Source of the DNA: Gossypium raimondii
Taxonomy: Eukaryota > Streptophyta > Magnoliopsida > Malvales > Malvaceae
Assembly (NCBI RefSeq): GCF_025698545.1
Contig: NC_068569.1
Coordinates: 26,474,001 to 26,538,000, forward strand
Direction: 5' to 3'
Length of the DNA: 64,000 nucleotides
Positions within the stretch are counted from its first letter, which is position 1; each line of letters opens with the position of its first letter. Both the position numbers and the translations under genes were made by a program. Below the pieces are notes generated by a model that was not told where the DNA came from, searched no databases, and worked only from the letters and a program-made list of their open reading frames with translations. Shown one piece after another: positions 14,594 through 49,220 of this stretch.

Positions 14594-14976
14594 AACTACC
14601 ATATTGGACAATCGTCACAATCGGGTAGGAATTGAGCTTATGTAATCCAATGTACCTAATTTATATTACAAAGTTTATTCCAATTTTTAATGTTGTAATG
14701 TATTTAATTTATATTACAAAATTTATGTTACAAAGTATGTTCCAAGTTTTAATGTTGTAATGTTGTAATGTTACAATTAATCTAATTTATGACTACAAAG
14801 TTTGTTCCAAGTTTTAATGTTGCAATTAATCTAATTAAATAAATACAAAGATTGCCTTTTTATTGATTTATATTTTTTAGAATAAAAAAGTACAAACTTT
14901 GTAATATTTAAATTGTAAGAAACCCTTAAAATTGATAGTTTAATGGTGTGGTCCTAGGGGTATATTTCTGTGGGGG

Positions 14977-16710: not shown

Positions 16711-17044
16711 TAAATTACAAAAATAGTTATAATAACATAATTTATTTCGGTAAATGACATAGAACATTTTTTAAGGGAACCCGTGATTAACAAATAACAA
16801 TATATTACCATATTATTAACTGTGTTTAATATGCGACCATCGTTCTCAATTAATAAACCCATTGCGATACCTGTAATTTCAAAACAAATTTCGTTATTAA
16901 TTTCAAAGTTTGATGCATTTTAAATATTTATCAAAATACCTAAATTTCATATATTGCTTTTAATTACAAAAAATACCAATCAGCTTTTGTCCACATCATA
17001 TTTTTGCTCTACTACATTAACAAAATATATATATCATACAAATT

Positions 17045-17560
17045 CAACTCGACTCCAACTCAATGGTCCCATTCACAAATTCTATCTCAATGGTTTAATA
17101 TTTTACCTACATAAAAAACAATAAAATTTATATTAAAATAATAAAATAACATGCCAATAAAAATATAACAAAAATATAACATAAATTATCTCAACATAAT
17201 AAATACAAATATTATTATAATTTTAAAATGATAATAAGTAAAATGTATTGGTTTAAAATATAATATATATAATAACATGCCAACTTAATTATTGTCAAAA
17301 ATATAAATTTTTTTGCATACAAGGATTCAAAAGAAATTTCATATATAATATTTATAAAAACATAAAATAAAACTTAAAACATAAACTCTTATTCTCAATT
17401 ATAAAATCTTAAAAATTAGAACATATAAACGAATTCGTAATTTATCTCATAAATTCTAACTCAGTGGTCCCATTCTCAAATTCCATATCAATAGTCTCAT
17501 CTTTTACTTACATAAAAATAAAAAAAATTATATTAAAATAATCAAAATAACATGCCAAAT
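17045..17560. repeat. Direct repeat inside the MULE, about 110 bp, diverged
   Basis: The block at 17045-17170 (CTCAATGGTCCCATTC, ACATAAAAA, AATAACATGCCAA) recurs at 17447-17560 with about the same order of motifs. It lies between the PMD gene and the right TIR, in sequence with no coding signal. A pyrimidine-rich stretch follows at 17880-18050. Confidence 0.5.
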
Positions 17561-18147
17561 AAATTACATAAAAATATATCTAATCAACCTAAAACACACA
17601 TAACAAATAAATTACATAAAAAATAAAACATTATTTGTACATAACATAATAGACTTTTTACTTCAATAAACATTAAAATAAATTATGAATGAATGAAAAT
17701 ATAAAATAAATACAAACACACCTTAATAGCTCTTTTAACCAAATAATACCTTACAAAAATAAAATTAAAAATTAAATCTGAATTAAATCAACAATAATAG
17801 CAACAAAAACAAATTAAATTAACATTAATTTATAACAAAAAAATTACCTTTTCTTAAACACCTAATCTTCTCTAAACAACAAACTCTCTTTTTCCTTTTT
17901 TATTTATTTATTTTACCTTGTCTTTCTCCTTCCCTCTCTCTATTTTGCTCCTCTTTTTTTCTTTATTTTTCCCTTCCCTTCCCTTCTTGCCCTGTCCTTC
18001 TCCTTATTCTTCTTCTCTTCTTCTCTTCTTTTCTTCAAAATTCTCTCTCCTCCGGTAGCCAAAAATGGGCATTGGGGACCATTATAAGGTCCCCAAACAC
18101 ACACAACTCGCAGGCCTTCATGCATGACCCGTCCCATTGCTGCAGGC

Positions 18148-18367
18148 CGGTGTTACCTATGGGGAAGGCGTGACTGGTGCCGCATCTTCCCTAGGCGTGA
18201 CTGGTGTGCTGTCCCATCAATTTTTGTTTTCATCAATTTTTTTATCAATTTTTTTTGTGTCAGGCACCACCCTCCACCACTTTAAATGTACCATTTTGGT
18301 ACATAATTTTTGAAACATGCCATTTTGGTATTTTTTTTAAATTTTATATTATATTAGTAAAAAACCC
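18148..18367 (-). repeat. Right TIR of the MULE
   Basis: Inverted partner of the left TIR. It ends AGTAAAAAACCC at 18367, directly followed by the TTTCTATTA target duplication. Confidence 0.85.
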
Positions 18368-26560: not shown

Positions 26561-29184
26561 TGCATACCCAACAAAAAAAAAAAAACACAAACCAAAAAAT
26601 AAATAAATAAATAGTCAAAGTCCATTACAAATAAATAAGACCCAAATTACCAGCTCAAATCTAAAACCTATTACCTAAATTACAAAACTCAAAAAAAAAA
26701 AAAAACTAAAAACCCTAAAGCCCAAATGGCCCAAAACTAAACTAATTTTCGGCCAAAAAAAGAAGGGCAGAAACCCTAGCCGCATGCCACGTCGGCACCA
26801 TTGCCTCCTCGCACGCGCCTGACCCCTCTGTCACCACTGTCAGTCTCTGTCACCTCCTACAAAGAAGGATAAACACGCAAACAACAGTAGAAATAATAAA
26901 AACTTTGTAAAATGGCTATATAAGCCATGATAAACGGATTGTAAATGGCGGGTTTTTTTAATACAACAAAAAGAACAGATTCAAAGCATACAAACAAAAA
27001 TATAGCAACCAAGCAGAGAAAAAGTGAGAAACGTGCAAGGTCCTCTTCATTTTTTTATTTTCTTTCTTTTTCCTTTTTTTGAAACCGTTTATACATACAA
27101 ATATTTCTTTTTTTTTAAATACTGTTTATACATATATATATATATATGTATTTCAAAAGTATATGAAAAGAGAAACTTACACCTTGACCCCCGCGCGCGA
27201 CCTAACCCGCCAGGGGATCCGCGTGTTTTCAACTTTTGGGTTATTTTGCAGAAAGTCCTTCCGCCTTTTCCACCTATTTTAATTAGATCCTTTTTGTTTA
27301 TTTTTGTTTCTTTTAATTCGGACTGATAATTTTGTTTTCATCACATTTTAGTCCCTAATGGAACTGTGCGTTTTGGTGGACGAATTATTTCCCATTTTGG
27401 TCCCTCCTTGTTATTCCTGCGTTTGATGTGGTCCTTTACCCTTTCTTTTATTTTCGATTTTACCTGAAACTCTATTTAAAATTTCAATTTTTGTTATTAT
27501 TATATTTTTAGATTAATTAATCTAATATTATTATTACTATTATTATACTTTCCTTTTTTGCATTTACTTACTTATTATTATTATTTTACTATTAAACAAA
27601 TTAATTTTATATTATTGCTATTATTATTATATTTCTTTTTTTGTTTGTTTACCTAATGTTTTCTGTAAATATATTTATTTTTATCATTTTATTATATTTA
27701 CTTATATCCTTTTATAATTTCAAACTTAGATTATTTACTATTATTACTAATATCATGCTTATTATTTGTTTATTTATATCCTTTTCATCATTTCAAACTT
27801 TATTATTCTTATATTTATTAATATTAGGGTAAACTATAAAAATAGTCACTTTTGTTTGTCTTGGATTACATTTTAGTCACTTATGTTTGAAACGTTACGT
27901 CTTAGTCACTTACGTTATCGTTTTGTTACGAAGTGGTCACTCTACCGTTAAACTCCGTTACCTCCCTAACGACAGTCCTACGTAGCAGTCCAAATGGATT
28001 TTAAATGCCAACTTAGATGTCCTATGTGGTAGTCCAAATTAAATCTATTTAATTAAAAACCTATTTTCATTTTAACAACTGAACATCCAAATTGGCATTT
28101 GAAACTTATTTGGGCTACCATGTAGGATTGCCGTTAGGGAGGTAATGGAGTTTAACGGTAGAGTGGCCGCTTCATAACCAAATGATAACGTAAGTGACTA
28201 AAACGTAACATTTCAAACATGAGTGACTAAAATGTAATCTGAGACAAACAAAAGTGACTATTTTTATAGTTTACCCTTAATATTATTTCTTAAGCTGTTT
28301 ATATACCATTTATTTACGTAATTATTTACTATTTTTTTATCTTTTATTTTTAGTTTCTACTTTTTTCTCTTTCTATTTGCAATCAGCTCGTGTGTTTCGT
28401 TAATTCCTTTATTTTATTCTCGTCTTTATTATTATTATTATTTATTTTTTATTAACTCATTTATTTTATTATCATCGTGATTTATTTTTTACAACAAATT
28501 GGTGTTACATTAATCTTTTACTCAACACATACAATTGCGGTTTTTTAAAATAAGCACTGTTTGTATTTTGAGATTCGAAAAGTCGTATCCCAACTTACGG
28601 GGTTTTGATTTTCTCGATAAATCCGTATACACAAACCTCTTTTAAACATAGGTTTTAAATATTCTCGGGAATTAAGAAAAATTGTGTTCCAACTTAAGGA
28701 ATATGATTTCTTTCTAATATCGAGATAATTAAATATATTTCAAATAAGTAAATTTTTCGGTGTTCATTCTCGTATCAGGAATTTGAGACATTGTGTCCTA
28801 ACTTACGGGACATAATTCTTTTTCTCGATTAACGTCAAATATGCCCATTTCTCAAAAATTTTCAATATTTTAGCAGAGGATCGTATTTTAAATCTCTTTA
28901 AAGCTTTCAATTCTCGACACTAAGGCACTAATTAATTAACTAGGTACCATTGGGCGTAACGAAGGTGCTAATCCTTCCTCGTACGTAACCGACTCCCTAG
29001 CTCGTTTTCTTGAATTTCGTAGACCAAAATCATTGTTTTAGTAAATCAAAGCATTTTATTAAAACGATCAATTACGAGGTGATCTGATCACACCTCAATA
29101 AAAAGGATTGGTGGCGACTCTTATTTTCATTTTTTTGTTTTCATAAATAAAAATCGACCATTTTACAAAAAAATGGTTTCGACA
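26561..29184 (+). mobile_element. Long LTR of Ty3/gypsy type, boundaries uncertain, with a nested MITE
   Basis: The right end (GGTGGCGACTC near 29110, then AATGGTTTCGACA) matches the ends of the two solo LTRs at 49221-52093 and 57147-59099. All three share a GC-richer leader with pieces such as AAACCCTA and a TCC.AACTTA.GG-type motif repeated along the right half. A 450-bp MITE (27827-28276) is nested inside. The left end is chosen at TGCATACCC. No target duplication was recognised, so the left limit is tentative. Confidence 0.6.
27827..28276. mobile_element. MULE-type MITE (GGGTAAACTA family), 450 bp
   Basis: Inverted ends GGGTAAACTATAAAAATAGT extend about 120 bp. Identical 9-bp target duplications TTAATATTA lie at 27818-27826 and 28277-28285. 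The same family occurs at 47542-48260. No coding content. Confidence 0.88.
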
Positions 29185-30527
29185 ACCCTAACTTGATTTT
29201 TTTTTTTAAAATATACTTATTTAGAATGTTAATTTCATATTGGATGGTTCATCTTAGGTAGCGTTCGGTATTTTCTGATGTTATGATTCTAGTAGAATGT
29301 GATTTTTTGAAATGTAATAGCTGGGAATGCAATTACTATGAATGTGACTTTATAACATTTGATATACATTGGAAGGTATTAATTAAAATATCATGAAAGT
29401 TACATCATTACGTTTGATTCATTAAGCACTTTCTTAGGAATGTAACGATAATTTATGAATTTACCCTTATTAAAGAAAAATAATATTCATGTATTAATTT
29501 TCATAATAAACTTTATTATTAACAAATATTTGGATTAAATATTTAATAATAAATATTAATATGTTAATTTTAAAATAATTTTTTAATTTATAATTTTAAT
29601 TGAAAGCAAAATTATTTCAAATTTGTCTTGCATATATATATTTCTAAATATAATAATGCATATATAAAATTAAGTATATATAAACTTGTTTTGGAATAAA
29701 TTTAAAAATACTTGAAATCACATTTTATTTTAGCTAAAGGCTGACTCATAAGAATATAAAAAAGTTGATTCTAACGAATCCTTTGAACAAAACTATAAAT
29801 AATTTAAAGGTAAACCATGCAAAAAAAGTTATGATTAAATAAGTGAGTTTAACCTAAACTTTAATTTTTTCCATTTTGCTCGAAAAATTCATAAAGACTA
29901 TAATAAAATTAAAATTTCAATTAATATACTTAAAAAAGAGTTAAAACAATAAAAAATAAAGATAATATGTAAATAGTATACTAGATAGATCATTAAATAT
30001 GCATATGAAAAATAAAATTAGGAAGAAAAAACTTACGAAAAATTTGTTGAAGTAATAGAAAAATCAAGTTGGAGAAAGAAGACAATAGTTTTATTTTGTT
30101 TTTTTCATATGTTCATGGGAAATCAACTGTCAAGGGAAAGTAGCTCCTCGAAAGAAAATTAGTTTACAAGAAAATAAATAAAACTTGACATACCAAACAT
30201 TATCTTAAATTTTTAATCAAAATTATAAAAACTAGGTTTTGAAATCCTAAACTGCAATTATCAAATTGCTATATAATATGATATGATATGATATTGCTAT
30301 ATTTTTACTAAAATTCTCTCACTTATCAAATAACACTTCAAGCTCGATGGCCTAACCCATAAATAGATCTAATTTTATACTATTTTTATTATTTTATTCT
30401 ACCGAAAAGTAGCTTTTAAAACAACACGCACAATTATATGATTTGACTTCTCCTACTGTTGCTTTATCATTTTCATAGAAATAAAAATTATTATGTTTTT
30501 AACAATAATAATGTTATATATAAAGTA
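29185..30527. other. AT-rich intergenic region
   Basis: No coding frame or repeat boundary is recognised. Confidence 0.4.
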
Positions 30528-31908
30528 AACTACAATGCAAACCACTCAATTTTCTTTTTCACTCAATTATAAATTTTTATTTTAATTACTTAATTTTTTT
30601 CACCCAACTATTAAATTTTTTAATTTGTTCACCCAACTAATTAATATTTTTTTGCCCATTTCTATTAAGTATAGTTAAATCTTTAACCGAGAATGACATG
30701 GCAGTTAAAAAAATAATATAATAAATTTAGTCATCAACTTTTACGTATTATATCGATTTAATCATAATTTAAAAAAATTAATCCTCAAAATTTACCTCCT
30801 CTTCTTCTTCCCCACTGCCACTACCATGGTTACCTCCGCCACCACAACCACCTCTAACTTCACCTCTTCCATCTTTAAAAAAAAAAAACCTTAACTTGCA
30901 CAAAATGTTAAACCAAACATTGTTTGCAGGTAACTTTACCTTCCTTCACTTCCTTGTTTGTTGTCATCTTTCTAAACTTAATTTTGTATTTGGAAAATTA
31001 AGTATCTTTGTTTCTAACATTGACAATTTGAGTTTTCACTGCAGGTGAATATTAAAGGGAGTGAATTTCATATTTAATAATTAAGTGAATTGGAAGAAGA
31101 TGCTTGTAGTTTTGAGATTGTGATTGAGAAGGCAACAATGGGTTGTTGAGTTTGGGGCCATTAATTAACCTTGGGGGTGGCAGAATATGGCATCTGGAAG
31201 AGGCAGGAGTCATGGTCATGAGTTGATGCCTCTGGTAGCATTTATAAGCAGAGAGATGAATAAGCCAAGCGTGAGATACGAGCATGCTACTCAATCTAGG
31301 AAAGGAAAAGATTATTTCTTGGTTAAAACAGGTTGTCAATGAGTGCCTAGCAATCCTTCATCTACCTTCTTTGTTTTAAAGAAAAAGGGAAAGCAAAAGT
31401 TTTTAAAGTTATCCCATTTCATTGAGGCTCTTGATAAACTCAGAGAACAGACCAAAGAGACTGTAAAGGGATTGGAATCAATGTTGAAACTTGCGGCTGA
31501 TGATTTTGGTAAGGATGCAATGATGGATGATTATTTAATGATAAATTAGGTTCAAATAGAAGAAAAAAAAAGTTTTTTTTAAGGAAAGTGGAGTAAGAGG
31601 TGGTGGTGAGGCAATGATAGTAGTGGAGGTAGAGGAAGTAGGAGAAGAAGGTAAATTTTAAAAATTATTTGTAAATTTTGAAGATTAATTTTTAAAAAAA
31701 AATTATAATTAAATTAATTTAATATGGAAAAGTTGAGGGCTAAATTTGTTATTATACTAATTTTTTTAACTGTCACATTACCTACCTGTTAGCGATTTAA
31801 CGAAATGAGCAAAAAGAAAAATAATTTTAATTAATTGGGTGACTAAAAATAATGATAATTGGGTGATTAAAAAACCATAATTAGATCAACAATGATGTAG
31901 TTTAGCCG
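30528..31908. mobile_element. Pack-type transposon, copy 1, carrying PP2C and PEX19 fragments
   Basis: Diverged inverted ends (AGTAAACTACAATG at the left, CATTGTTGATGTAGTTTAGCC-like at the right) continue for about 350 bp: the CACCCAACT, GACATGGCAGTTAAAAAAAT and AATTTACCTCCTCTTCTTC blocks all have complements on the right (31640-31900). The GTAAACTACA end resembles the GGGTAAACTA MITEs. Between the arms lie captured pieces of two unrelated genes. No target duplication was found. A second copy lies at 44216-45470. Confidence 0.72.
31187..31549 (+). pseudogene. PP2C-PEX19 chimeric gene fragment, copy 1
   Basis: A 121-codon frame with a single internal stop (TGA, 31340-31342). Codons 1-62 match the N-terminus of a PP2C-type protein phosphatase (KPSVRYEHATQSRKGKDYFL, KTGCQ, NPSSTF), ending before the DGHNG metal-binding motif. 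At about 31375 the frame passes into PEX19, the import receptor for peroxisomal membrane proteins (KKKGKQK, then EALDKLREQTKETVKGLES, then DDFGKDAMMDDY), without its C-terminal CaaX box. Upstream, 30930-31044 looks like the end of a PP2C leader intron (TTTTCACTGCAG) and 31045-31186 like its 5' UTR, so capture was from DNA. The TGA sits where related phosphatases have CGA (Arg). No enzyme activity is expected. Confidence 0.75.
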
Positions 31909-32453
31909 ACTAATCCATTATCATATTAGATTCTCCAAAATGGAAATCCTACAAATGCATTATCATCTCATATATTAGTTAATTCGATATTCAGATTTTG
32001 ATGGAGTTTAGATTTTGCCAAATTAGATTGCATTTGTAAAATATGATGAGTTGGATACGTGTAGAATAATTTCCTTAAAATTTGAGTGGCAATAAAACTC
32101 TCGGTACTTTTATCAAGGTATTTTTTTTTTTTGTAAAATAGGTTGATTTATATAATTTCACAGCTTGAAGACACTAAGTGACAAACAGACAAACACAGCT
32201 GTTCTGCATTCAACACATGCATAGAAAATATCAACAAAATAAAGAAATAGCAAAACCGAACAAAACAAAGCAGAAAGTTCACTTTAGAAAATGAAACGCC
32301 AAACGAACATCAGCAGTGGCTCTTCCTCAACCCAAATCAGCCAAAGTGCTTCCCACTATATCTGCATCGATACCCACAGAAAGGAAACACTGGAGCTATG
32401 AACAGATTCTTGGAGATTCAACCGAACCTTCTCCAAAGTTTAAAGCTAACTCA

Positions 32454-35400
32454 TCAACAACCTTGAGACTTCCGTCCCCACGCAATCCAGTCCTTTCTCA
32501 CCGCCTGTAGAATCAGATTTGGGACATCAGTATCCCAGATCCGATAAGCCTCTCTCCTCCGTCTTTCGATGGCTAGAGCATGCGCCGTTTCATTTCCTTC
32601 CCGAGGCACAAATGTGTAAGTAACCTCTTCAAAACTCCTATCAAGCTGTTGGATGTGATAAACGATCGATCTAATAATCGATTTGCCCACCTCTCTATTT
32701 CTAATGGATTTTATGACTGACAAGGCATCCCCTTCCACCACCAGCCGTTGGAGACCCAACGCATGTGTAAAAATCAACGCTCTCTCACAAGCCCGAGCCT
32801 CTGCCACAAAAGGGTCAGCAACATCATTTAAAAGGTGAGTCTCCGCTCCAACAATTTCACCTTTATGATTTCTAGCCATGACTGCTGTTACGGCCAAACT
32901 TAAATCTTGCAAAAAGGATGCATCAAAATTAATCTTGACAAATCCATTGTTAAATGGTCTCCAAATTGCCTTACCAACGAGTCCCGTACCAGGGCTGATG
33001 ATCTCCCTACTGATGCTTAGTTCTTGTTCAAAACCTCTAATAAAACCCAGTAGTTCTTGCCTCGAAAATTTAACTCTTCATGCACTAGCTTGTTTCTGCG
33101 ATACCAGAGGCTCCAGATCGATATAATGATACTCTTTTTATGACGTTCATCCGCTTCCAAAAACGTTTTAACAAAACGCTCTTTATGGTCCAGTGAGCTT
33201 TCAAAAGAGGGATTCTGCACCAATAACGAGTTCCAAATATCCTGCAGAACATCACAACTCCACAAGAGGTGATCAGAATTCTCCAACTCATTCTTACACA
33301 ATGGACATACCACAGCTACGCACAGAGTCCGACGCGCCAGATTTTCGTAGTGAGGCACCAAATTGTGAAACAGCCGCCAAACGTGTATTTTAATTTTTCC
33401 TGGAATACTTAAATTCCATAGCCCTGTAAAGAATTTTTTGTAATTCTCCGATATAGAGGATAGGTTAGCTCTATTTTATAATAATACTATAGAGAGGGCC
33501 CTGTATCCGCTCTTGACCGTATATTCACCCGAACCCTCATACTTCCAAACCCTCACGTCTTCCGGCCTACTCACGAAAATAGGTATAGAGAGGATTCTTT
33601 TAACAGTTTCATCATCAAACAGCTTATGTATGACCTCCCTGTTCCAGGTATTGCCTTCAATAGGGTGATTTACCGTTGTCCAATCTGTACTAATGTCATA
33701 ACCTTGAATTCTATTGTTTTCCCTTCCAGGTAACCAGGGATCGTTCTATAGATTAGTGCACCCACCGTCCCCCACCCGCCACACCATCCCTTCTCGAATC
33801 ACCTTACGAGCACTGCAGATACTTCTCTAGGTAAATGAGGGGTAAGAACCGACTTTAGCTGATAAAATATCTGAATAAGGAAAGTAACGGGCTTTAAACA
33901 CTTTAGCTAAAAGGCAGCTAGGTCGGGTCAAAATGTGCCAGACCTGTTTTGCTAACAACGCTTTATTAAAAAGAAACATATTTTTAAATCCCATTCCCCC
34001 AAAGTTTTTTGGTTTGCAAAGCTTTTCCCACGAACTCCAACGAATACCTCTTGACGTTCTATTATTAGTCCACCAAAACCTATTCATAATACCTTCAAGC
34101 TTTTCACATAAAGACTTTGGTAATAGGAAGCATTGCATCGCATAAATTGATGTAGCCTGCAGAACCGATTTAATGAACACCTCCTTCCCCCCATCGACAG
34201 ATAGCACAGACTCCACCCTTCAACTCTTTTCCTGAATCTGTCCACATAACTTGCGAAAGCCCACTTTTTATTCTTACCCACCATCATAGGCAATCCTAGA
34301 TACTTTTCTAGATTAGGAGCCAACTGGACACCAAGCTGATTAACAATATCCTCCTTCACCTCCGCTTGCACATTCGCTCCAAAGTAGATTAGTGACTTAT
34401 CAAAATTCACCCGTTGCCCTGAACCTTTCTCATACTCACAAATTATCTCCCGTACGACTCTCGCTCCCTCAGAAGAGGCATCTCCAAAAATAATACAATC
34501 ATCCGCAAAAAACAAATGATTCACAGCGAATCTCTCTCTCCCAACAGTTGCGCCCATCAATCGTCCTTCGTTTCTCACATCATTAATAAGCGCTGAAAAA
34601 CCCTCTGCATAGATCAGAAACAAAAAAGGGCTGAGAGGGTCTCCCTGCCTTAACCCCCTCGAGGGAGAAAACCACTCACCTTGAACACCATTAAGACAAA
34701 CCGAGTATGAGATAGAACAAACACAGCGCATAATAAGAACAATCCATTCCATATGAAACCCCAATTGCTTCATCATCCCAGCCAAAAATCCCATTCAACT
34801 CGATCATATGCTTTACTCATGTCCAATTTGAGTGCAAAGTTACCCTTCTTACCGCGTTTCTTCATTTTCAGAGAGTGTAACACCTCATAAGCAATTAACA
34901 CGTTGTCCGAGATTAACCGTCCTGGAATAAACACCCCTTGTGCCTCATTAATACAATGCCTCAACATGGTACTCATCCGGTTCACCAGAACTCTCGCAAT
35001 AATTTTATAAACAACATTACAAAGACTTATGGGCCTAAAATGTGACATATATTTTGGCTTATCAATTTTTGGAATTAAGATGATACGTGTTTTATTGAGC
35101 TCACCTAATTCAGCTTCCCCATTTAGAATTGCTAAGTAAAATTGAGAAACATCCACCCCCACAATGTGCCAGTACTTCTGAAAAAATATAGCATGATACC
35201 CATCCACTCCGGGTGTTTTCAATGGTGCCATCGGTGCTTTCAATGGTGCCATCTGCTTAACAGCCATCGTGATCTCCTCTTCAGTGAACTCCTTTAGCAA
35301 ATCCTCATTCATACTCTCCGTCACTTTTTCCTCCACTAACCCAAATAAATGTTCATCTGAACCCACATCAGAAGCCGAGAAGAGATTGCCAAAATAAGTA

Positions 35401-36664
35401 GATGCTATCTATACAAACTCTTCATTCGAATTCGCTTGTCGCCCATAATCATCCTGCAGCTCCGTTATTCTTCTCCGGAGGTGACGTTGCACAGCCACCT
35501 TATGGAAAAAACTGAGATTGCCAAAATAAGTAGATGCTATCTATACAAACTCTTCATTCGAATTCGCTTGTCGCCCATAATCATCCTGCAGCTCCGTTAT
35601 TCTTCTCCGGAGGTGACGTTGCACAGCCACCTTATGGAAAAAACTAGTGTTACGATCACCATTCTTTAGCCAATTCGTACGAGCACGTTGCTCCCAATAA
35701 AATTCTTCCTTATCAGCTTCTAAATTAAGTCCCAGTTGAACTTCTGTGATCTCGACCAATATGTCATCGTTGATATCCTGATTATACAATATGGACAATC
35801 TATCCTCTAAATCGAATCGTTTCTTTTTTTCCGCCCTACTTGACGACTTCTTCCATCGGAGTATCTGATCTCCCAACTTTTCTAACTTTCCCAGCACATT
35901 ACCATCATTTTCAATCCACCATTTTTTAACCAACGCTTCAAATGAGTCATCCAAACACCACTTGGCCTCAAACCTAAAAATATTCACATTTCTATCTTCC
36001 TTTCTTCTATTAACACCCTCAGAATCAAGAAGGAATAGACAATGATCAGAAAAAGAATGGCTTAAATGTTCAATCCGATACCCTGAAAAACGATTCACCC
36101 AACTCGATGTAGCCACACCATGAACCATCTTCCCAAAAAGCCTAAATCTGTAAGGTCGTAATCTTCCAATGCATCAGTAAAATCTTTCATTTGTCGATCT
36201 GAGTAGAGACGCCCACCCTCTTTTTCAAAGGAATTCACAATTTCGTTAAAATCTCCCATTACAACCCAATGAATAGTTTGATCATGACTCAACTGACGAA
36301 GTAAATCCCATGATGCACCTCTATTTCTTTCCTCCGGATGCCCATAAAACCCCGTAAACCTCCATGTACCGCCACATTCATTGTCATGAATTTCCACATC
36401 TATATGATACAAGGAAAAACTTTTAAGCTGCACCAACGCATTACCTTTCCATCCCAACGACAATCCCTCTTTTGTGCCTATAGCCCCAACGTCGATCCCA
36501 TTTTCAAAACCACACCTCATCCGTACCCTTTCCATACTTTTTGAACATAATTTCGTTTCCATAAGAAATAAAATACGAGGATTTATGGCTCGTAACTTAT
36601 TCCGGAGCCTTTTAACAGTTCGTGGCCTCCCCAACCCACGGACGTTCCAGCTTAGGATTTTCAT
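32454..36664 (-). pseudogene. LINE ORF2 (endonuclease, reverse transcriptase, RNase H), interrupted
   Basis: Order from 36664 leftward: AP-like endonuclease (MKILSWNVRGLGRP, WVVMGDFNEI), which ends with a shift near 36110 and resumes with SHSFSDHCLFLLD; then the reverse transcriptase (PGVDGYHAIFFQKYW, FRPISLCNVVYKIIARVL, LDMSKAYDRVEWDF, GLRQGDPLSPFLF, FADDCIIFGD); then a zinc-binding zf-RVT region (CPLCKNELENSDHLLWSC, 33361-33017); and an RNase H domain (32912-32454, VEGDALSVIKSIRNREVG). Breaks occur near 36110, 35540, 34790, 34200, 33820 and 33400. A 132-bp tandem duplication (35382-35513 and 35514-35645) and a 21-bp one (MAPLKAPMAPLKTP) lie inside. The domain set is typical of plant L1 elements with a terminal RNase H. 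Confidence 0.88.
35382..35645. repeat. 132-bp tandem duplication inside LINE ORF2
   Basis: Bases 35382-35513 are repeated head-to-tail at 35514-35645, with near identity (start GAGATTGCCAAAATAAGTAG). 132 is a multiple of three. Confidence 0.85.
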
Positions 36665-36978
36665 TGAGCTCGGCTGCTCTGGTCTCTAGAGCTAGCCGAT
36701 ACATCCATAACACCTGGTCCAGCAATAGTCTCCAATGGTTTCCTCGTATTCTCCACGATTCGCTGCCTTTTCTTACCTTCCGCCAGAGCAATAGGGTCCT
36801 CCTCCTTATTCAATATCAAATCCATAGATCCATATCCAGCCCCAACAGCGACCATTCTAACATCCCCTCCGCCATACCCCAAATTATAGATACTATTATC
36901 TTTGTAATTGCCCGAACCCGCCTGCCTGAGATTGGGATTTATATTTTGACTCCCATTAGCTCCCCTAACATTGCGCCC

Positions 36979-37904
36979 TTACACGTTCCCCTCATATGAG
37001 AGATTACCCTGATTGGAATCTCCCGAATTATCCAAATTACACGGTATCCCATCCGCTGTCCTTAACCATCTATTGTCCAACATGTTCCGACGTCTAGTTG
37101 CTACCCGCAATGATAAGTCCCAACCAAAGGTAATTTTTGAAGGCTCAATTTGGAGTCGAAGGGGGAAAAAACTTTCCCCGTGTCCTAATCTTCCACAGAT
37201 GAAACAGAACAGGCTTAGCTTCTCATATTTAAACCTAGCATATACCACCAAGGATTTTCCAAACAAAACTTTCTTTTTACATTTTAGCGGGGCAGTAACA
37301 TCCAAATGGACTCGTGTGCGTAAGTAAAATTGAGAACCTAGTGTTGGTATAGAAGTATCATACTCAATGAATTTTTCGCAGAAATTACCAAACTGTTTTG
37401 CCATTGATTCGTTCATCGATCCTGGCGGTAAATCATGAACTTGGATCCAAAACTCGGTGAATTTTAGATCCATTACTGCCGGGTTGTCACCCTCAGAGAT
37501 TGATTGAAGTATAAGTAAGCGGTTATTAAAAAACCATGTGTCCCTGCAGACACCCTTTCCAAATCAATTTTATTAAAAAATTGAAACATATACCTTTTCT
37601 CCCCCAAATCCGTAATACAGATCCCTCCAATTGGATGCCAAAGATCCGCCATGATATTACGCAGTGATGGGAAATGAACAACGCTATCAGTTAAGCAACG
37701 ACCCACCAGGCAAAACTGATAAACAAAAGTTTCCGCTCCTACAATTTCCTGAATCTCTTCCTCCTCATCGTCTATCAACTTCATATTCGCCATTGCATCC
37801 TCCATACTGATTCCACAACCTGATACAGCCACAAGAAAATCTAAAGAATAATTAAGAAATTTAGGGTTTCGTGCCAAGTCGACAGACAAAAGGAAACGTA
37901 CCAA
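36979..37904 (-). pseudogene. LINE ORF1 (RNA-binding protein, DUF4283 type)
   Basis: Reading leftward, 37904-37473 holds the N-terminal domain (SMEDAMANMKLIDDEEEEI, LADLWHPIGGI-like core, MFQFFNKIDLERV). A shift near 37480 leads to 37473-36979, with FWIQVHDLPPGSMNESMAKQ and a zinc knuckle CFICGRLGHGESFF. In this knuckle the fourth ligand, normally C, is F. The tail up to the ORF2 start is short. ORF1 would bind the element RNA. Confidence 0.82.
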
Positions 37905-37979
37905 ATTCGGCAGACTTAGTTTATAATAACTTTTAACTTTTTATTTATGGAGGATACTTTCATTTTATCAAGGTATTTT

Positions 37980-39761: not shown

Positions 39762-40742
39762 TTACTTGAATGTTAAACCAGATCCACTTAATTTTTCTTC
39801 TAAAATGTTATTGAAACGTTCCACAGCAGTAGGAGTGAGATAATTAACATAATCACCCACTTTTCCACTCCTGAAAAATAACTTATTATTAGGTAATATT
39901 GTTTCTGCCATTTTTCCAGTTTTGTTGACCTCCAAATCTTTCAAATTGTTGAAACTGCAAAAATCAACAATTTGGTTAACCACACCTGTTTTCTCTTCTT
40001 CTATGGAGAAAGGAAATCCTAAGAATTCAGCCAATCTCTTTGTTTGAGCCACTGGATCTTCCTTCAACTCTTCATATCTCAAGAACAATACATTCGATGG
40101 CTTCTCCAAACTCATGTTCCAGTACCCCAAAACATGGTCCCAAAAGGGTCCATACCCTTCTTCACCTCTACAAAACATCTCAAAACAGTCTTCCACTGGC
40201 CAATCATCCATAAATCTAAAAAAGTGCCAAAGTGAGACAACGATGTCAAACGGATTACGGGTTATATAAATAATTCGGCAATTTGAATGTTTGATGGAAT
40301 CGGCTAGCATTGGATACGGGAGATGAGTAGAAAACAACCTTGGGGATGGGATTTTACAGAGATCAGGATTAGAGTTTTCCCTATAAAGCTTGATCTCAAA
40401 AAATGGAATCAGTTGATGAGGATTTGCAGAGTTCAAAGGGGTATTTGAGAGCGTATAAGAATGACGGTTGACAATTGTAAACACCAAAGCCTTGAGCCAA
40501 GTGGTGCCAGCTTTGGGCTTAGAGGCAACAATGATATCATCATCAAGAGCCTGGAAATATTTCTGAAATGAGATTATGGATGAAGTGGGAACACGAGAAG
40601 AAGGGATCCAAAAGCCTTGGAATTGGGTTAAACCTATCGCATATGCATTAGATGCTGCAGTAGAAGGTGAGACATTTGGGGTGGATGTTTCCAGGCTACT
40701 TTCCTTGCTCTCCATAATATTGTAATTGCAATGATTTAGCAC
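39762..40742 (-). CDS. Cytosolic sulfotransferase (SOT A), intact
   Basis: Transfers a sulfonate group from PAPS to a hydroxyl of a small acceptor. The acceptor cannot be told from sequence; plant relatives act on flavonols, brassinosteroids, jasmonates or glucosinolate precursors. One exon of 326 residues, the usual length and structure for plant SOTs. The 5'-phosphosulfate loop PKAGTTWLKAL is at residues 76-86, the catalytic histidine is in STHLPY (H140), the 3'-phosphate site is ITRNPFDIVVSLWHF (161-174), and the C-terminal FRSGKVGDYVNYLT (290-303) is a variant of the family RKGxxGDWKxxFT motif with Y for W. A TATA box (40749-40756) lies only about 7 bases before the first ATG, so Met10 (40715) may be the true start. 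It heads the A-B pair. Its coding integrity suggests function. Confidence 0.88.
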   Translation of the reverse strand: MLNHCNYNIMESKESSLETSTPNVSPSTAASNAYAIGLTQFQGFWIPSSRVPTSSIISFQKYFQALDDDIIVASKPKAGTTWLKALVFTIVNRHSYTLSNTPLNSANPHQLIPFFEIKLYRENSNPDLCKIPSPRLFSTHLPYPMLADSIKHSNCRIIYITRNPFDIVVSLWHFFRFMDDWPVEDCFEMFCRGEEGYGPFWDHVLGYWNMSLEKPSNVLFLRYEELKEDPVAQTKRLAEFLGFPFSIEEEKTGVVNQIVDFCSFNNLKDLEVNKTGKMAETILPNNKLFFRSGKVGDYVNYLTPTAVERFNNILEEKLSGSGLTFK

Positions 40743-42084
40743 AATCAGTATATATAATATTCTTGCTCAAAAATCACAGGTGCTTGAATAATGGGTTCTT
40801 TTAATATCTATTTATTAGCTTAATTACGTCTTCCAATGGTTAAATTACTGAAAAAAGCAACATTTTTAAATATTAGTTTATTAGCATTTGGGTTTTGTGG
40901 AAGATTTGGTGGATGTCACCACGTTCATGGGAGGCTCAACTAAGTCATTGAGTTTGGATCACTACAAATTTGATTATTTTATAACACTAGAATCACTACG
41001 TCTCAAATGATTGAGGCTTTAATTTTCTTTTTGATTTAAGTTCATCTTTAAGAAAATATTTTTGCTGAGAAAAAAAAAGTTGATCTGGGTTGGGGTATTG
41101 TGTGCCTTGATGCACTTTATTATCTTTTTTGTTCTAATGAAATATCTTTAATTGCTTAGAAAAATAATAATATTTAATAATTTCAAAAATATTTGAAATT
41201 TATTATTAATATAAAAAAAAAGAAAAGCCAAAATCCCTAATTTTCTGATACATGATTTTGTACTGCTGCTAGGCGAAGGATTAAAATAATTCATTATAGT
41301 CTTTCATTTCTTCCCTATGTTCTCTACTCTTTATTCACTCACCTCACGTTCCGGAAAGGAAGAAAAAAGTTATGTGCCATAAAATTAGGACCAAACATTT
41401 ATAAGATTCGTGTTGGTTAAAATGATTTAATTGGTATCATTTTTAAGGGATGAACATAAAATTATAAAAATATTTTTCCTTTAAATTATAACCAATAGTA
41501 TTATGATGCACTTTTATCTTTTCCCACTTTTTATAAATATGTTTTCTAAAATAAATCTAATATATATTTATATATTTACTCGGTCTTTCAAGAAAGTTCA
41601 TAAGAACATTACAAAGATTAGCAACCAAAATACACATACATGTAGAATTGTTCATGGCTCGACCATTTATCAAATGTCAAATATTTTCTATTTATAGATG
41701 ATAAATATTATTAAAATTTATTGTTATATATTATATATTTTTGGGTTAAATTCAACAAAATACTGTTATTAATTATTAAGTAATAATTGACTAAATTAAC
41801 TCAACTCATTAAAAGGTTTAACTGAAGCATGACTTAAGTGAATTGGGTTTACTAGATTAGATGAATAGTCCAACCTTCAAATTGGTTTACCTATACACAT
41901 TTAGGTATGTATGAAAGATCCACCATCCGTCGATTTTTTTATTTATAAAATCAACCTTTTAAAAGTTTGAAGCTGAAAATATAATTTTATTAGAAGAAAT
42001 AAAGGGTAGATAAGAAACAAGTTTACAAAAAAAAAAAAAGAAGGGAAATATTGGATATAACATAAACAAATGTTATTAAGCAAC
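40743..42084. other. Upstream flank of SOT A and spacer to SOT B
   Basis: Bases 40743-41320 are the SOT upstream flank, repeated at 48916-49220 plus 52096-52372 (split by a solo LTR), at 54949-55536 and, diverged, at 56037-56605. The remainder is AT-rich, with no gene seen. Confidence 0.6.
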
Positions 42085-43235
42085 TTAATTGAAAGTTAAA
42101 CTAGATTCACTTAGTTTTTCTTTCAAAACATTGCTTAAACGTTCCACAGCAGTAGGAGAGAGATGATTAATATAATCACCCACTTTCCCACTCCTAAAAA
42201 ACAACTTATGACTAGGTATTAGACTTGTCCATTGGCCGGGCCGAGCCCAGAAAAAAATTTCGGCCCGCCTCCTAGGCCCGGGCCCGGCTCGGCCCAGCCT
42301 GAAATATGGGCCTAAAATTTTGTCCAGGCCCGGCACGGGAAAAATATTATAAGCCCGGGCCCGACCCGGCCCGACCCATTTTTAATAAACATTAAAAAAT
42401 TATTTTAAAAATATAAAAATAAAAATAAAATTATTTTAAAAGTATTTTAAAATTTAAAATTTAAAAATAAAAATAAAAATAAAAATATATTTATTATATT
42501 CGGTAGGTAAAGGCTGCTCAAACCAAAAAGTGGTGCTCGAGGTCTGCCCGCTTTTTAAACGGCCTCATTTTTTGTCCAAGCCCATATTTCGGCCTATATT
42601 TTTACCTGAACCCTCCCATATTTCGGCAAGTCAGGTCAGGCCGCATACCATGGACAGATCTACTAGGTATTATAGATCTTGGCATCTTCCCAGTTTTGTT
42701 GACCTCCAAATCTTTCAAATTGTTGAAACTGCAAAAATCAATAATTTGGTTAACCACACCTGTTTTTTCTTCTTCCAAGGAGAAAGGAAATCTTAATAAT
42801 TCAACCAATCTCTTTGTTTGAGCCACTGAATCTTCCTTCAGTTCTTCATATCTCATAAACAATATATTCGATGGCTTCTCCACACTCATGTTCCAGTATC
42901 CTAAAGCATGGTCCCAAAAGGGTCCATACGATTCTTCACCTCTGCAAAAAATCTCAAAACAGTCCTCCAATGGCCAATCAGGCAAATTATGCACGCCTCT
43001 TACAAAGTGCCAAAGTGAGACAACGATATCAAACGGATTACGGGTTATATAAACAATCCGGCAATTTGAACGTTTGATGGAATCGGCTAGCATTGAATAC
43101 GGGAGATGAGTAGAAAACACCCTTGGGGATGGGATTTTAGAGAGATCGAGATTAGGGTTTTCCTTATAAAATTTGATTTCAAAATGTGAAATTAGTTGAT
43201 GAGGATTTGCAGAGTTCAAAAGGGTATTTAAGAGC
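42085..43235 (-). pseudogene. Sulfotransferase SOT B, split by a MITE and 5'-truncated
   Basis: Reading leftward from 43235 the frame starts at the position of residue 100 in SOT A (NSANPHQLISHFEIKFYKEN). It keeps the catalytic histidine (STHLPY) and YITRNPFDIVVSLWHF, and runs to EVNKTGKMPRSIIPS. There a 433-bp hAT-type MITE (42230-42662) intervenes, after which HKLFFRSGKVGDYINHLSPT resumes to the TAA near 42085. A three-residue longer loop (RGVHNLPDWPLED) sets it apart from A and E. The N-terminal third, with the PAPS loop, is missing: a copia LTR begins at 43236. SISHF/IKFYKEN features group it with F. Confidence 0.88.
42230..42662. mobile_element. hAT-type MITE, 433 bp, inside SOT B
   Basis: Inverted ends TAGACTTGTCCATTGG and, from the right, TAGATCTGTCCATGG. 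Both ends are GC-rich (GGCCCGGGC-type) around an AT-rich core. An 8-bp target duplication CTAGGTAT lies at 42222-42229 and 42663-42670, the hAT length. SOT A and E show the uninterrupted frame here. Related degenerate copies lie at about 1666-1880 and 38335-38504. Confidence 0.85.
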
Positions 43236-44215
43236 TGTTAGGGATCGACCCGATTAAGCAATAAGTAACAAAAATAGCGGAATAAATTGAGAAATTGAAC
43301 ACATAAATTTAATGTGGAAAAACCCCTCCAAAGAGGATAAAAAACCACAGGCAAAGATAGTTTTACTATAATGGTAAAAGAACGAAGAGTACAAAAGATG
43401 GAGATAAAACTAAACCCCGAAAACCTGAAAACAAAGAACTTTCAAAATGTAAATACAAAATTCTCTAAATGTGTTATGAGTTCTAATCTCTAATGGGTGT
43501 TTTTACTAAGGTTGTAAAAGAGCCTATTTATAGGCTAAATTCATATGTCAAATAATAATAAAATAATCTAAACTAATCAGTGTTTGATTGAACAAATAAA
43601 CAGAGTTTAACTAGAAGATTATTTTTCAAATTTGACTAAAAATAGGAGTCATACTTAACAAATCTCCACCTTGACTCATATGCCAAAGCCCGCCACGAGC
43701 CTATCTTGAACTATGCAGGGAATTAACTGAGTCGAATCTGTGCTTAGAAACTGGAAGACTTCTAGCCTTCGACTTGTACACTGCCGAATCAAAACTAACC
43801 CGAGTCTGATTTTCACGAATACAGTGCCCTAACTTTTTAAAACCTGCATCCAAAAGAGAACCTCTCTTCAACGAAACGGGCATACATTTTTCCTTAGTAT
43901 GACCAAGTTGCCTTCGCTCCAAACGAGTTAACTTCGACTCTGTAATGGACGAGGGACGTCCGATTTCACCGGTCACTGTAGAACCTTCCAGAATATAAAG
44001 ACTGCCAGTTCTTTTACCTTTTAACAAAACGAGAGCTCCACGAGATACTTTTAATGCCGCTTGACCCGATGTTGATTCTGCATCCTTTCAAGTCTAAAAT
44101 ACTCAATGAGATGAGATTCTTTCGTAAATCAGGTACATACCTGAATCTGAGAGTGTCCTAATCGTCCCATTGTGTATCCTAATTTTAATAGTACCAATAC
44201 CAATTACCTTACTAG
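43236..44215 (-). mobile_element. Truncated copia element (3' LTR plus a gag-pol fragment)
   Basis: On the minus strand the 3' LTR (43660 down to 43236, 425 bp) begins TGTTAAGTATGAC and ends CCTAACA, and is preceded by the purine-rich tract CAAGGTGGAGATT. Inward, 44215-43701 matches the copia pre-integrase region (IGIGTIKIRI and KGKRTGSLYILEGSTVTG), with stops at about 44075. Most of pol and the 5' LTR are gone. The LTR end lies in SOT B's coding frame, and the other end abuts the truncated Pack-type element, so the element or its junction marks a deletion boundary. Confidence 0.8.
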
Positions 44216-45470
44216 ATGAATCGTTAAATCTCTAACAGAAAATGACGTGGCAGTTAAAAAAATATAATAATAAATTTAATCATCAATTTTTACATATTAT
44301 ATCGATTTAATCATAATTTTAAAAAAATTAATCCTCAAAATTTACCTCCTCTTCTTCTTCCCCACTGCCATTACCATTGTTACCTCCGCCACTACAACCA
44401 CCTCTAACTTCACCTCCTCCATCTTAAAAAAAAAAAAAAAAACTCAACTTGCACAAAACGTTAAACCAGACATTTTTTGCTGGAAACTTTACCTTCTTTC
44501 ACTTCCTTGTTTGTTGTCATCTTTCTAGACTTAATTTTGTATTTGGAAAATTAAGTATCTTTGCTTCTAACATTGACAATTTGAGTTTTCACTGCAGGTG
44601 AATATTAAAGGGAGTGAATTTCATATGTAATAATTAAGTGAATTGGAAGAAGATGCTTGTAGTTTTGAGATTGTGATTGAGAAGGCAACAATGGGTTGTT
44701 GAGTTTGGGGCCATTAATTAACCTTGGGGTGGCAGAATATGGCATCTGGAAGAGGCAGGAGTCATGGTCATGAGTTGATGCCTCTGGTAGCATTTATAAG
44801 CAGAGAGATGAATAAGCCAAGCGTGAGATACGAGCATGCTGCTCAATCTAGGAAAGGAGAAGATTATTTCTTGGTTAAAATAGGTTGTCAATGAGTGCCT
44901 AGCAATCCTTCATCTACCTTCATTGTTTTAAAGAAAAAGGGAAAGCAAAAGTTTTTAAAGTTATCTCATTTCGTTGAGGCTCTTGATAAACTCAGAGAAT
45001 AGAGCAAAGAGACTGTAAAGGGATTGGAATCAATGTTGAAACTTGCGGCTGATGATTTTGGTAAGGATGCAATGATGGATGATTATTTAATGATAAATTA
45101 GGTTCAAATAGAAGAAAAAAAAAGTTTTTTTTCTGAGGAAAGTGGAGTAAGAGGTGGTGGTGAGGCAATGATAGTAGTGGAGGTAGAGGAAGTGGGAGAA
45201 GAAGGTAAATTTTAAAGATTATTTGTAAATTTTGAAGATTAATTTTTTTAAAAAATGATAATTAAATTAATTTAATATGTAAAAATTGAGGACTAAATTT
45301 GTTATTATACTAATTTTTTAACTGTCACATTACCTACCGTTAGAGATTTAACGAAATGAGCAAAAGAAAAATAATTTTAATTAATTAGGTGACTAAAAAT
45401 AATGATAATTGGGTGATTAAAAAACCATAATTAGATCAACAATGATGTAGTTTAGCCAACTAATCCATTA
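44216..45470. mobile_element. Pack-type transposon, copy 2, left end lost
   Basis: Nearly identical to 30662-31920 of copy 1, but it starts abruptly at GTTAAATCTCTAAC next to the copia fragment, so its outer left TIR (about 130 bp) is missing. The right TIR is retained to about 45460. Confidence 0.7.
44739..45101 (+). pseudogene. PP2C-PEX19 chimeric gene fragment, copy 2
   Basis: Same 363-bp layout as copy 1, with the shared TGA (44892-44894) and an additional TAG where copy 1 reads CAG (LREQ to LRE-stop, near 45000). Codons such as QSRKGEDYFL are closer to the expected phosphatase sequence than copy 1's KGKDYFL, so each copy holds changes of its own. No function expected. Confidence 0.75.
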
Positions 45471-47541
45471 TCATATTAGATTCTCCAAGTTAATTCTATA
45501 TTCAGATTTTGATGGAGTTTAGATTTTGCCAAATTAGATTGCATTTGTAAAATATGATGAGTTGGATACGTGTAGAATAATTTCCTTAAAATATAAGTTG
45601 CAATAAAACTCTCGGTACTTTTATCAAGGTATTTTAGTTTCTTTTAGAATCTGATTTGTAATTGTGAAGGCAATGGTTCAGATCTTATTTTATTTCAAGT
45701 GGCTTTTGGGGTTTTCTCTTTTCAATTTCTATCATTGGATTCCAACTATATTGTCTTTTATCAAGGTCGTTAATTCTGTTTTGGTATCATTCCTATTGAT
45801 CGAAATATTTCCTATTGATAGTAAATTGAAATAATTGTAGATCTCGATCGGTATTAGTCCTACCATTGTGTACTGCCAATATTGATATAATAAGGAAATA
45901 TTAATATTTAAAATAAACTTGAATGATTTGATATTATTCTCAATAATAATTTAAATTGTTTTTTATTATATATTTTTAAAAATTGGTTGGCAGGGTTAGA
46001 TTTGGACAAAAAAAATCTTGTCGAAGGCCCTTCCCATATAGAAAATGAGCCTTAAATTTTACTAAGCTCATTTTTCGGGCATTATATTTTATCCAAACCC
46101 TCTTATTTGTTGAGCCCAAACTAACACATGAATTTAATTATTATTCTAAAATACTTTCAAAACAGAAACATATTAAGAAGTCAATCAAAAGCTACCCACT
46201 TTCTAAAAGAAACTGTCGATGGTCGGTGGTGTTTCAACAATGATAGACACCATCATCTGTCCATTACAATTTGTGAAGACAACAAATATTCTCACAAAAT
46301 AGATCTGTAAACAAAAAATAGAGAAGACGCATGTAGTGAATGAAAAGAAAAAAGAAAAAGAGGATTGATAGGCTGAAGAAAAAAGTGAGCCGTAGCTAGT
46401 CCGAAGACTAATACCGTCGCTAGGCAAAAAGTATTTTAAAACAATTTGATTGTTAATTTAAACTTCTTGGAAGTCAGTCCACCATATTGCAGAGAAAAAT
46501 ATAATTGAATTTGCGATTAACCTATATTTAATATGCTTTAAATTAATTAACCCGAGCATGGTATCATCTAACGTCCTTCCTCAAAGCCCACTATATAAAG
46601 ATGCTTCAATAATGTCTTTCAGAATAAAAATAATAATAACAACAACAATAAAAATGTGGTCTCGATAGAAAAAAGAAATGCAATAATAATTGAGCTCCGT
46701 CCTCACCCATTACCTTAAAAGAAATATTAATATTTAAAATAAACTTGAATGATTTGATATTATTCTCAATAATAATTTAAATTATTTTTTATTATATATT
46801 TTTAAAAATTGGTTGGTAGGGTTAAGTTTGGAAAAAAAATCTTGTTGAATGTCCGTTCCATATAGAAAACGAGCCTTAAATTTTACTAAGCTCATTTTTC
46901 GGGCCATGTATTTGTTGAAACCCTCCCATTTTTTGGATGGACTTTCAGGCTTGGACGTGTAGCCCTACCCATGAGCAAGTCTAATACTATGGCTAAGAGA
47001 GGAGCTGCAAGTTGAGGAAGTTGAAAACGCAGATAAAAGTGACAAAGTCGATAGAGTTTGATGGTAGGATTAGTAAGGAGTCTTTAACAGAATTTGAATT
47101 TAGAAATAGCAAATAGGTATGTTTCAAGATGCAAAAAAAATTTGGAGGGTGATGAAGATAATGTTGTGGATGTTTTGGTTGAGGTTGTGACTTGACAAAT
47201 TCTTATATGAAGATTTCAGCAGTGTTTGATATGAGTGGAGTAGGTGTTGGTCGTTAAAGGTATTCAAGAAGGCAAGTAACATAGTGGATCCAATTGGAAC
47301 TTCTTGTTGGCTTTGCGTTCAGTGGTATTTGTGGAGTTTTATTGTGGTTACAGAATTTGTGAAGAGTGCTTACTAGTAGTGAAGTATGGTTGAAGCTTTT
47401 TTTGGTGATATTGAAGGTGTGTTTTAGATGGTCTTTGTTTGTTTAGTGAATTTCATTGGAGATGTGTGGTTTTCTCTTTCTATAATTTGTGGGGGGTTTC
47501 TATTTGAGATTTCGATTCTTAAAACTTTTAATTTTTATTTA
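45471..47541. other. Unit copy 2 flank, with a 620-bp unique insertion and a repeated block
   Basis: Corresponds to 31920-32124 plus 37980-39060 of copy 1, without the LINE. A block of about 190 bp (45893-46085) recurs at 46722-46910 on either side of about 630 bp (46095-46720) that is absent from copy 1 and that I do not recognise. The frameshifted twin of the 38509 frame lies near 46989. Confidence 0.55.
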
Positions 47542-48260
47542 GGGTAAACTACCAAAATAGTCACTTTTGTTTGCTTCAGGTTACATTTTAGTCACTTTTG
47601 TTTGAAATGTTACGTTTTAGTCACTTACGTTATCGTGTTGTAACATTTTAGTCACTGAGTCGTTAATTGCCAACAATGGTGTAACGATAAGCTGAGTGGC
47701 ACGTTAAATCATCATTTCAAACGAAAATTTTAGGTTAAATTCTACAATTGGTCCCTATATTTTTTTATTTTCAACAATTTAAAAATTTTCTTTTATGTTC
47801 TTCTAACTTTTTTTTTCCATTCTCTTATGCTTTTCCCTCTATTTTCCTCCCTTCTTTATTTCTTTTAACATAGTTTTTCTATGTTTTCCATTTGTAACTA
47901 GTCTACAAGCTCGCCTCACTCGAAAAAATTAAATTGTTCAAAAAAATAAAACATAGAAAACTACGTTGAAAGAAATGGAGAAGGAGGAAAACAAAGGAGA
48001 AGCATAAGAGAATGGAAAAGAAAGAAAGTTAAAAAACATAAAAGAAAAAATTAAATTGCTCCAAACGAAAAAATATGGGGACCGATTGTATAAATTAACC
48101 TAGAATTTTTGTTTGAAATGGTGATTTAACGTACACATCGCCATCGTTACATCGCTAATGTAAACCAACGGCTCAATGACTAAAATGTTACAATGTGATA
48201 ACATAAGTGACTAAAATGTAACATGAGCCAAACAAAAGTGACTATTTTAGTAGTTTACCC
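47542..48260. mobile_element. MULE-type MITE (GGGTAAACTA family), 719 bp
   Basis: Inverted ends begin GGGTAAACTACCAAAATAGT. A 9-bp target duplication TTTTATTTA lies at 47533-47541 and 48261-48269. Copy 1 (39050-39070) holds the empty site. It is longer than the 27827 copy, with an inner inverted block (GTTTGAAATG, then the AATTGTTC/AAATTGCT region). Confidence 0.88.
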
Positions 48261-48493
48261 TTTTATTTATTAAAATTTTACTCACTTACCAAAAATAAAA
48301 TTCATTTAGAATTGAAAATTAATTACCTTAAATTTTGAATAAAATTATCAACAATTTTTTTCTTTTTGGATAAAATTAGGTGTATATAGTGGAAAATTAA
48401 ATTTTGTTTTATATACTTTTATGCTTTTGTATATAATTAATATTTTAAAATTTTAATGGTTAAACTTTACAATATATTTCTAGTTATATAAGT

Positions 48494-48915: not shown

Positions 48916-49220
48916 AATCAGTATATATAATATTATTGCTCAAAAATCACAGGTGCTGAAAATAATGTGTTTTTTTAATATCTATTTATTAGCTTAATTA
49001 CGTCTTCCAATGGTTAAATTACTGAAAAAAGCAACATTTTTGAAGATTAGTTTATTAGCATTTGGGTTTTGTGGAAGATTTGGTGGATGTCACCACGTTC
49101 ATGGGAGGCTCAACTAAGTCATTGAGTTTGGATCACTACAAATTTGATTATTTTATAACACTAGAATCACTACGTCTCAAGCGATATGAGGCTTTAATTT
49201 TCTTTTCGATTTAAGTTCAT

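Follow-up and report, generated by a model that had tools for sequence, protein, structure and literature searches.

A Pack-type transposon in a cotton genome that carries fragments of a PP2C gene and a PEX19 gene

Introduction

How did the start of a PP2C gene and part of a PEX19 gene come to share one reading frame on chromosome 5 (C5) of a Gossypium genome (750.8 Mb, 281 contigs), and does that frame code for anything? We analyzed a stretch of 64,000 nucleotides around it (C5:26474001-26538000, hereafter the window). The original prediction placed a Pack-type transposon here, with two unrelated gene fragments between inverted arms, and regarded the fusion as exon shuffling. The cited parts of two sources describe Mutator-like elements (MULEs) by long terminal inverted repeats (TIRs) and target site duplications of 8-11 bp (PMC6446971) or 9-11 bp (PMC3310237). 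We consider it highly probable that the locus is a non-autonomous Mutator-like Pack-type TIR transposon whose captured cargo is drifting without coding function.

Results

Two gene fragments between inverted arms

The element was present as predicted, with its bounds corrected from 30528-31908 to 30523-31907. Both gene fragments and both arms were found in the sequence of this copy, named copy A. Its parts, in window coordinates, are as follows.

30523..31907, plus strand: copy A of the Pack-type TIR element, complete, 1385 bp, with ends AAGTAAACTACA (left) and TGTAGTTTAGCC (right)
30523..30895, plus strand: left inverted arm, with inverted matches to the right arm
30896..31377, plus strand: captured PP2C fragment (5′ leader and exon 1), one gapped alignment to the C3 donor; proteins P0001-P0005
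30930..31044, plus strand: predicted PP2C leader intron, GTAACT...CTGCAG, in donor and element, its splicing inferred from sequence
31187..31377, plus strand: PP2C-derived coding part, 15 bp shorter than in the donor, 23 of 191 aligned sites differing
31340..31342, plus strand: in-frame TGA (CGA in the donor), common to copies A, B and C
31379..31532, plus strand: captured PEX19 fragment, 154 bp, 14 differences from the donor C8:52346302-52346455
31533..31907, plus strand: right inverted arm, giving the last codons of the fused frame and its TAG stop
31547..31549, plus strand: TAG closing the fused frame, arm-derived

The arms are about 373 and 375 bp long and flank the cargo as inverted terminal repeats. 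Both fall within the range of 100-500 bp that the cited part of PMC3310237 gives as typical for the long TIRs of Pack-MULEs. The longest gapped match between them (BLAST) had 73.6% identity over 216 bp, below the minimum arm identity of 80% given for a tomato MULE TIR library in the cited part of PMC3310237. Shorter inverted blocks measured 64 nt (78%), 28 nt (89%) and 21 nt (86%). Between the arms there are only the two gene fragments and one further base, which leaves no room for a transposase. Pfam searches with the PP2C and PEX19 frames separately matched no family.

The arms belong to a dispersed family. Stretches of them occurred within at least 98 genome matches, with 40 of 831 candidates scored. 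The suggested GGGTAAACTA family was supported by a pattern search for such ends, which found 41 in the genome at two or fewer mismatches (5 at zero mismatches) and none with a reversed control pattern. The ends of copy A differ from the family end GGGTAAACTACA by two mismatches on the left (AAGTAAACTACA) and one on the right (TGTAGTTTAGCC). A further member with GGGTAAA ends lies at window positions 4584-5467; it has inverted arms, and its interior repeats are GA/CT-rich. As in Pack-TIRs, the inverted arms of a family surround cargo from identifiable host genes located elsewhere. That the locus is a gene-capturing TIR element is close to certain.

Donor genes of the two fragments

The PP2C donor is C3:55044744-55045292 on the minus strand. 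The whole fragment aligned to it in one gapped piece (DNA E=1.6e-108), and the protein match to PP2C had E=2.3e-19. In the leader, 45 of 286 aligned sites differed, gapped columns excluded. A genome query with the PP2C core gave five matches from the five candidates scored, namely the three C5 copies, the donor and a locus on C10. The donor and P0002 (G. schwendimanii) encode VRCGH, and P0001 has VRYGH. Protein matches placed the window in Gossypium, and VRCGH suggests that the host is probably this D-genome diploid or one of its near relatives. The fragment stops 4 bases short of the apparent end of the donor exon, ...GTTTTTGCG|GTAATG, and P0071 reads as an apparent translation that runs on through the donor intron after GTTTTTGCG.

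The apparent leader intron lies wholly inside the captured DNA and is also found in the C3 donor. Capture of the cargo from genomic DNA is probable: donor and element share an unbroken genomic segment that includes a leader intron of canonical appearance. The original prediction had argued the same from this intron, whose splicing is predicted. Two family ends, C3:55010761 and C3:55020633, lie near the PP2C donor gene, at distances of 24-34 kb. Their position may be due to chance, or it may possibly have a bearing on capture.

The PEX19 fragment matched C8:52346302-52346455 at 91% (DNA E=2.0e-53), and the protein match to PEX19 had E=1.4e-15. Both of its edges are internal to one exon, which extends to ...GGATCTCAG|GTATAT. 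Other PEX19 loci were weaker (C12:52721728, 81%; C2:46926018, 82%). The PEX19 query of the genome gave 15 matches from 14 candidates: the three copies, the C8 donor, the two paralogues on C12 and C2, two pieces of an element on C2, and seven arm-only matches. A PDB sequence search with the PEX19 frame returned ten weak matches, the best to a designed helical repeat (E=0.008), and no PEX19. We considered whether VQIEE, after YLMIN, was a decayed form of the PEX19 motif VKQFEE and rejected it; this stretch is arm sequence that occurs elsewhere without PEX19.

The matches of both fragments are well beyond chance by their protein and DNA E values, and the DNA matches lie on two different chromosomes. 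With donors on C3 and C8, the two halves do not come from one contiguous gene. Both predicted donor loci were found, but neither outer edge of the captured pieces coincides with a visible intron border. The idea that whole exons were captured at intron borders was not supported, as the PEX19 piece is exon-internal and the PP2C piece is 4 bases short.

Copies on C5 and partial relatives on C10 and C2

Three copies were found on C5. Copy C is complete (C5:26611912-26613317, 107 kb distant); the other features are in the window.

44220..45457, plus strand: copy B, left end missing, same right flank as copy A, extra TAG in the frame
about 32126-37960, minus strand: LINE in the right flank of copy A, with duplicated TTTTATCAAGGTATTTT and an RNase H-type domain (Pfam)

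Copy C matched the window without a break over 29040-31938, so that about 1.5 kb of left flank is common to A and C, and the right flank to A, B and C. As the flanking DNA is shared, the three copies spread by segmental duplication and not by separate insertions. The LINE, in which reverse transcriptase and endonuclease frames were recognized by eye, is missing from copy C, and the right flank of copy B is uninterrupted at that point. It entered the flank of copy A later.

The original prediction counted two copies within a duplicated SOT unit. A duplication with flanks in the SOT region was indeed seen, but there are three copies, plus the partial relatives on C2 and C10. Copy C is linked to the SOT unit by its flanking DNA alone, because no sulfotransferase match was found within the 8 kb examined around it. 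A cluster of sulfotransferase genes and fragments occupies window positions 39765-56054 (seven tblastn matches, minus strand).

On C10 (C10:36988-37404, L005), arm sequence meets the PP2C leader at the poly-A junction also seen in copy A, and the sequence is truncated within the leader. This locus and copy A share differences from the donor, namely two gaps and an AAAGGG-containing stretch. On C2 (C2:37530000-37535000, L040), a left-arm stub is joined to PEX19 at window position ~31403, followed by a nested 1.26-kb insert and then by a PEX19/arm junction identical to that of copy A. The inner left arm was lost there at a short TTAA-type junction. The nested insert has ends TAGGGGTGAGC.. and ..CTCACCCCTA with an imperfect 8-bp duplication, and we take it to be a hAT element. 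A 9-bp duplication was considered for this insert and rejected on reading the sequence, which fits a nested TAGGGGTGAGC-type element with the imperfect 8-bp duplication. Both cargo junctions are thus found outside chromosome 5, on C10 and C2, with no match to the flanks of the C5 locus. Neither relative yielded a proven target duplication.

These relatives bear on how the chimera was assembled. Recombination between two elements, one with a PP2C capture and one with a PEX19 capture, would explain why C10 has only the PP2C leader and C2 only PEX19. However, the C10 sequence breaks off within the leader and the inner left arm is gone from C2, so each may instead be a degraded derivative of the chimera. 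We regard such a recombination as possible but doubtful; it concerns the assembly step only and is compatible with a Mutator-like Pack-type transposon.

Three loci were considered as empty sites and rejected. At C1:6847172-6847827 (L050), the two flanks meet with no element between them, but about 23 bp of left flank and about 35 bp of right flank are also missing, and the locus may be a deletion. At C3:22667639 (L059) and C11:40817218 (L060), the right flank begins 7 bp inside the element end. In both, the right flank starts with the element's terminal 7 bp, TTTAGCC, and adjoins unrelated DNA; the two loci are ~95% alike over 3 kb.

Target duplications and the superfamily

No target duplication was found at copies A and C; the best 9-bp comparison had 6 of 9 mismatches. 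Among relatives, exact 9-bp duplications flank L008 (TAGATTTAA) and L014 (ATTAAAATA), and near ones flank L012 (7/9) and L010 (8/9). Twelve hand-chosen end pairs gave two exact duplications and three at two or fewer mismatches, with a mean of 3.08 mismatches; in this set a single insertion is represented by both A and C, L010 was left out, and the pair C6:23669144-23671889 is an inverted duplication including its flanks. For 130 swapped-flank controls the mean was 4.17 mismatches, and 7.7% had two or fewer. Another scan of six end pairs gave 0, 2, 3, 3, 3 and 4 mismatches. With other window sizes, 8-bp windows also matched at the two exact sites, and with 10-bp windows none of the 12 pairs had two or fewer mismatches. 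Arms were paired by local alignment at 16 loci, and the second end was recovered for some only, so most family members were unusable for target duplications.

As a possible autonomous partner, the MULE at 11132-18367 of the window was compared; its ends differ. That element is a 7.2-kb MULE with ends GGGTTTTTTACTAATATAATAT.. and an exact 9-bp flanking duplication TTTCTATTA; it carries a frame with a SWIM domain and, antisense, one with a plant mobile domain.

Could the element be a TIR transposon of another superfamily that captured gene fragments? Only 2 of 12 end pairs have an exact 9-bp duplication, in AT-rich DNA and at sites where 8-bp windows match too, and the one MULE compared, that in the window, has other ends. 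Against this, arms of ~375 bp together with 9-bp duplications suit MULEs best, and 10-bp windows gave 0 of 12 pairs at two or fewer mismatches. A non-MULE origin is unlikely, and assignment of the element specifically to the MULEs is probable. Pack-MULE is the likely, though unproven, family, because relatives have some 9-bp duplications and copy A has none.

Coding status of the fused frame

The predicted frame was confirmed in its main outline. It runs from the ATG at 31187 through 121 codons to the TAG at 31547-31549 with one internal TGA. The junction and the end needed revision. The PP2C match ends at 31377 and the PEX19 match starts at 31379, with base 31378 in neither. The last codons, YLMIN and the stop, are transposon arm and not PEX19: six of seven arm-only matches elsewhere start at 31532-31533 without PEX19 (the seventh starts at 31542), and the last codons and the TAG were assigned to the arm on this basis. 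Continuity of the frame across the junction is expected by chance in about one case in three.

The TGA is shared by all three C5 copies, and copy B has a second stop in the frame (CAG to TAG). Among the copies, 12 sites of the frame vary, of which one is synonymous and 11 are non-synonymous or nonsense. The probability of one or fewer synonymous sites is 0.29 for an unconstrained frame, 0.058 at omega 0.5 and 0.0011 at omega 0.2. Constraint at omega 0.2 is unlikely, but weak constraint at omega 0.5 is compatible with these counts. Because of the TGA in all three copies, the TAG in B and the 11 of 12 non-synonymous or nonsense sites, the frame seems non-coding here, and we are very confident that the cargo is non-coding in this genome. 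The claim of productive exon shuffling was not upheld, given the shared TGA, the second stop in copy B and no sign of strong coding constraint.

Divergence between copies was also compared. Between A and C, 10 of 632 cargo sites (1.6%), 12 of 276 flank sites (4.3%) and 45 of 663 arm sites differed; the cargo was below the flank (p=0.018) and below the arms (p=2.7e-6). The cargo was also below the arms in A/B (p=0.042) and B/C (p=0.037), but it did not differ from the flank in A/B (p=0.78) or B/C (p=0.80). Across the copies, divergence was 5.0-6.8% for arms, 3.2-4.3% for flank and 1.6-3.0% for cargo. Low cargo divergence could be a sign of constraint. Fast arms and slow cargo are indistinguishable here, because arms and flank did not differ significantly in the three comparisons (p=0.51, 0.18 and 0.30).

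A gene model in another cotton has the form of the chimera. GOBAR_DD16523 of G. barbadense (P0070, 97 aa) consists of the chimera plus arm code: a PP2C N-terminus that changes frame after YEHA, then PEX19 ALDKLREQTKETVKGLESMLKLAADDF and an arm-coded RGGGEAMIVVEVEEVGEEGKF. Its pieces map to 31187-31331 (with the frame change), 31427-31508 and 31594-31658, all within the element. By sequence reading, the implied introns in copy A coordinates run from GT 31332 to AG 31426 and from GT 31509 to AG 31593. This composition indicates that the chimera is very probably present in a tetraploid cotton as well; from the DD locus tag, we read the model as lying in the D subgenome. A search with P0070 found P0070 alone among three candidates. 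According to the cited part of PMC4588572, the G. barbadense annotation combined three gene finders, homology and RNA-seq/EST evidence. As such an annotation merges these sources, the model by itself proves nothing; unless transcribed, it is likely an annotation artefact.

This model speaks for a young functional chimeric gene, in which the arm would drive a spliced three-exon transcript for a small protein made of a PP2C N-terminus, a PEX19 helix and an arm-coded tail. The lower divergence of cargo than of arms in all three comparisons would suit it, and, according to the cited part of PMC3310237, the interiors of Pack-MULEs are expressed from promoters in their TIRs. Yet the shared TGA, the further TAG in B and the 11 of 12 non-synonymous or nonsense sites argue against coding constraint, and the P0070 search added nothing beyond the model. 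We find such a gene highly improbable. The same low probability applies to a real new 97-aa gene formed by transposon exon shuffling in allotetraploid cotton, with the diploid copies as non-coding relics.

Discussion

Ectopic recombination that produced a chimeric pseudogene, lying between inverted arms only by accident, is also highly improbable: copy A has no target duplication, and the locus is rearranged, with a C1 paralogue that joins left and right flanks without the element, but this origin is disfavoured by the C10 and C2 relatives, where the arm/cargo junctions recur without the flanks of this locus, and the arms come from a family with paired ends and some 9-bp duplications.

For a Mutator-like Pack-type transposon, the following course is suggested. 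Break repair or template switching within the element would have copied the cargo in from genomic DNA. PP2C and PEX19 may have entered in one or two such gap-filling events. The element would then have moved by transposase supplied in trans, and the fused cargo would have drifted afterwards without coding function. Here we infer the capture route, its order, and the transposition with its transposase. Gap-filling or template switching is proposed for the origin of Pack-MULEs and Pack-TIRs in the cited part of PMC8277862.

The phenomenon is already known, and the element is a well-resolved new example of it. The open-access literature searched yielded no description of this chimera; subscription papers were outside the scope of the search. 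Like the Pack-MULEs of rice, Arabidopsis, tomato and maize, the element is non-autonomous, has long TIRs and carries fragments of unlinked host genes. The sizes of tomato Pack-MULEs have a peak at 1.0-1.2 kb and a minor peak at 1.3-1.4 kb (PMC3310237, in part). According to the cited part of PMC4858842, two or more parents contributed to 5-10% of the MULE-derived putative genes in most Oryza species. Unlike Pack-MULEs, copy A has no target duplication, the arms are more diverged, and the three C5 copies arose by segmental duplication and not by transposition.

The definition of animal Pack-TIRs in the cited part of PMC8277862, non-TE sequence between TIR TE sequence, fits the element. The differences are that its host is a plant, that it is decayed and not young, and that it has partial relatives on two other chromosomes. 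The CACTA element Tgm-Express of soybean (PMC1947982) carries several gene fragments, spliced, by the title of that paper, into novel exon combinations. Our element belongs to another superfamily, and its splicing is predicted by a gene model in another cotton.

What the locus adds is a plant TIR element that joins pieces of two unlinked genes and for which the donors, the arm junctions and partial relatives on two other chromosomes are all resolved. Capture order thereby becomes testable across cotton species. The locus also illustrates that transposon debris can reach gene catalogues, as with GOBAR_DD16523.
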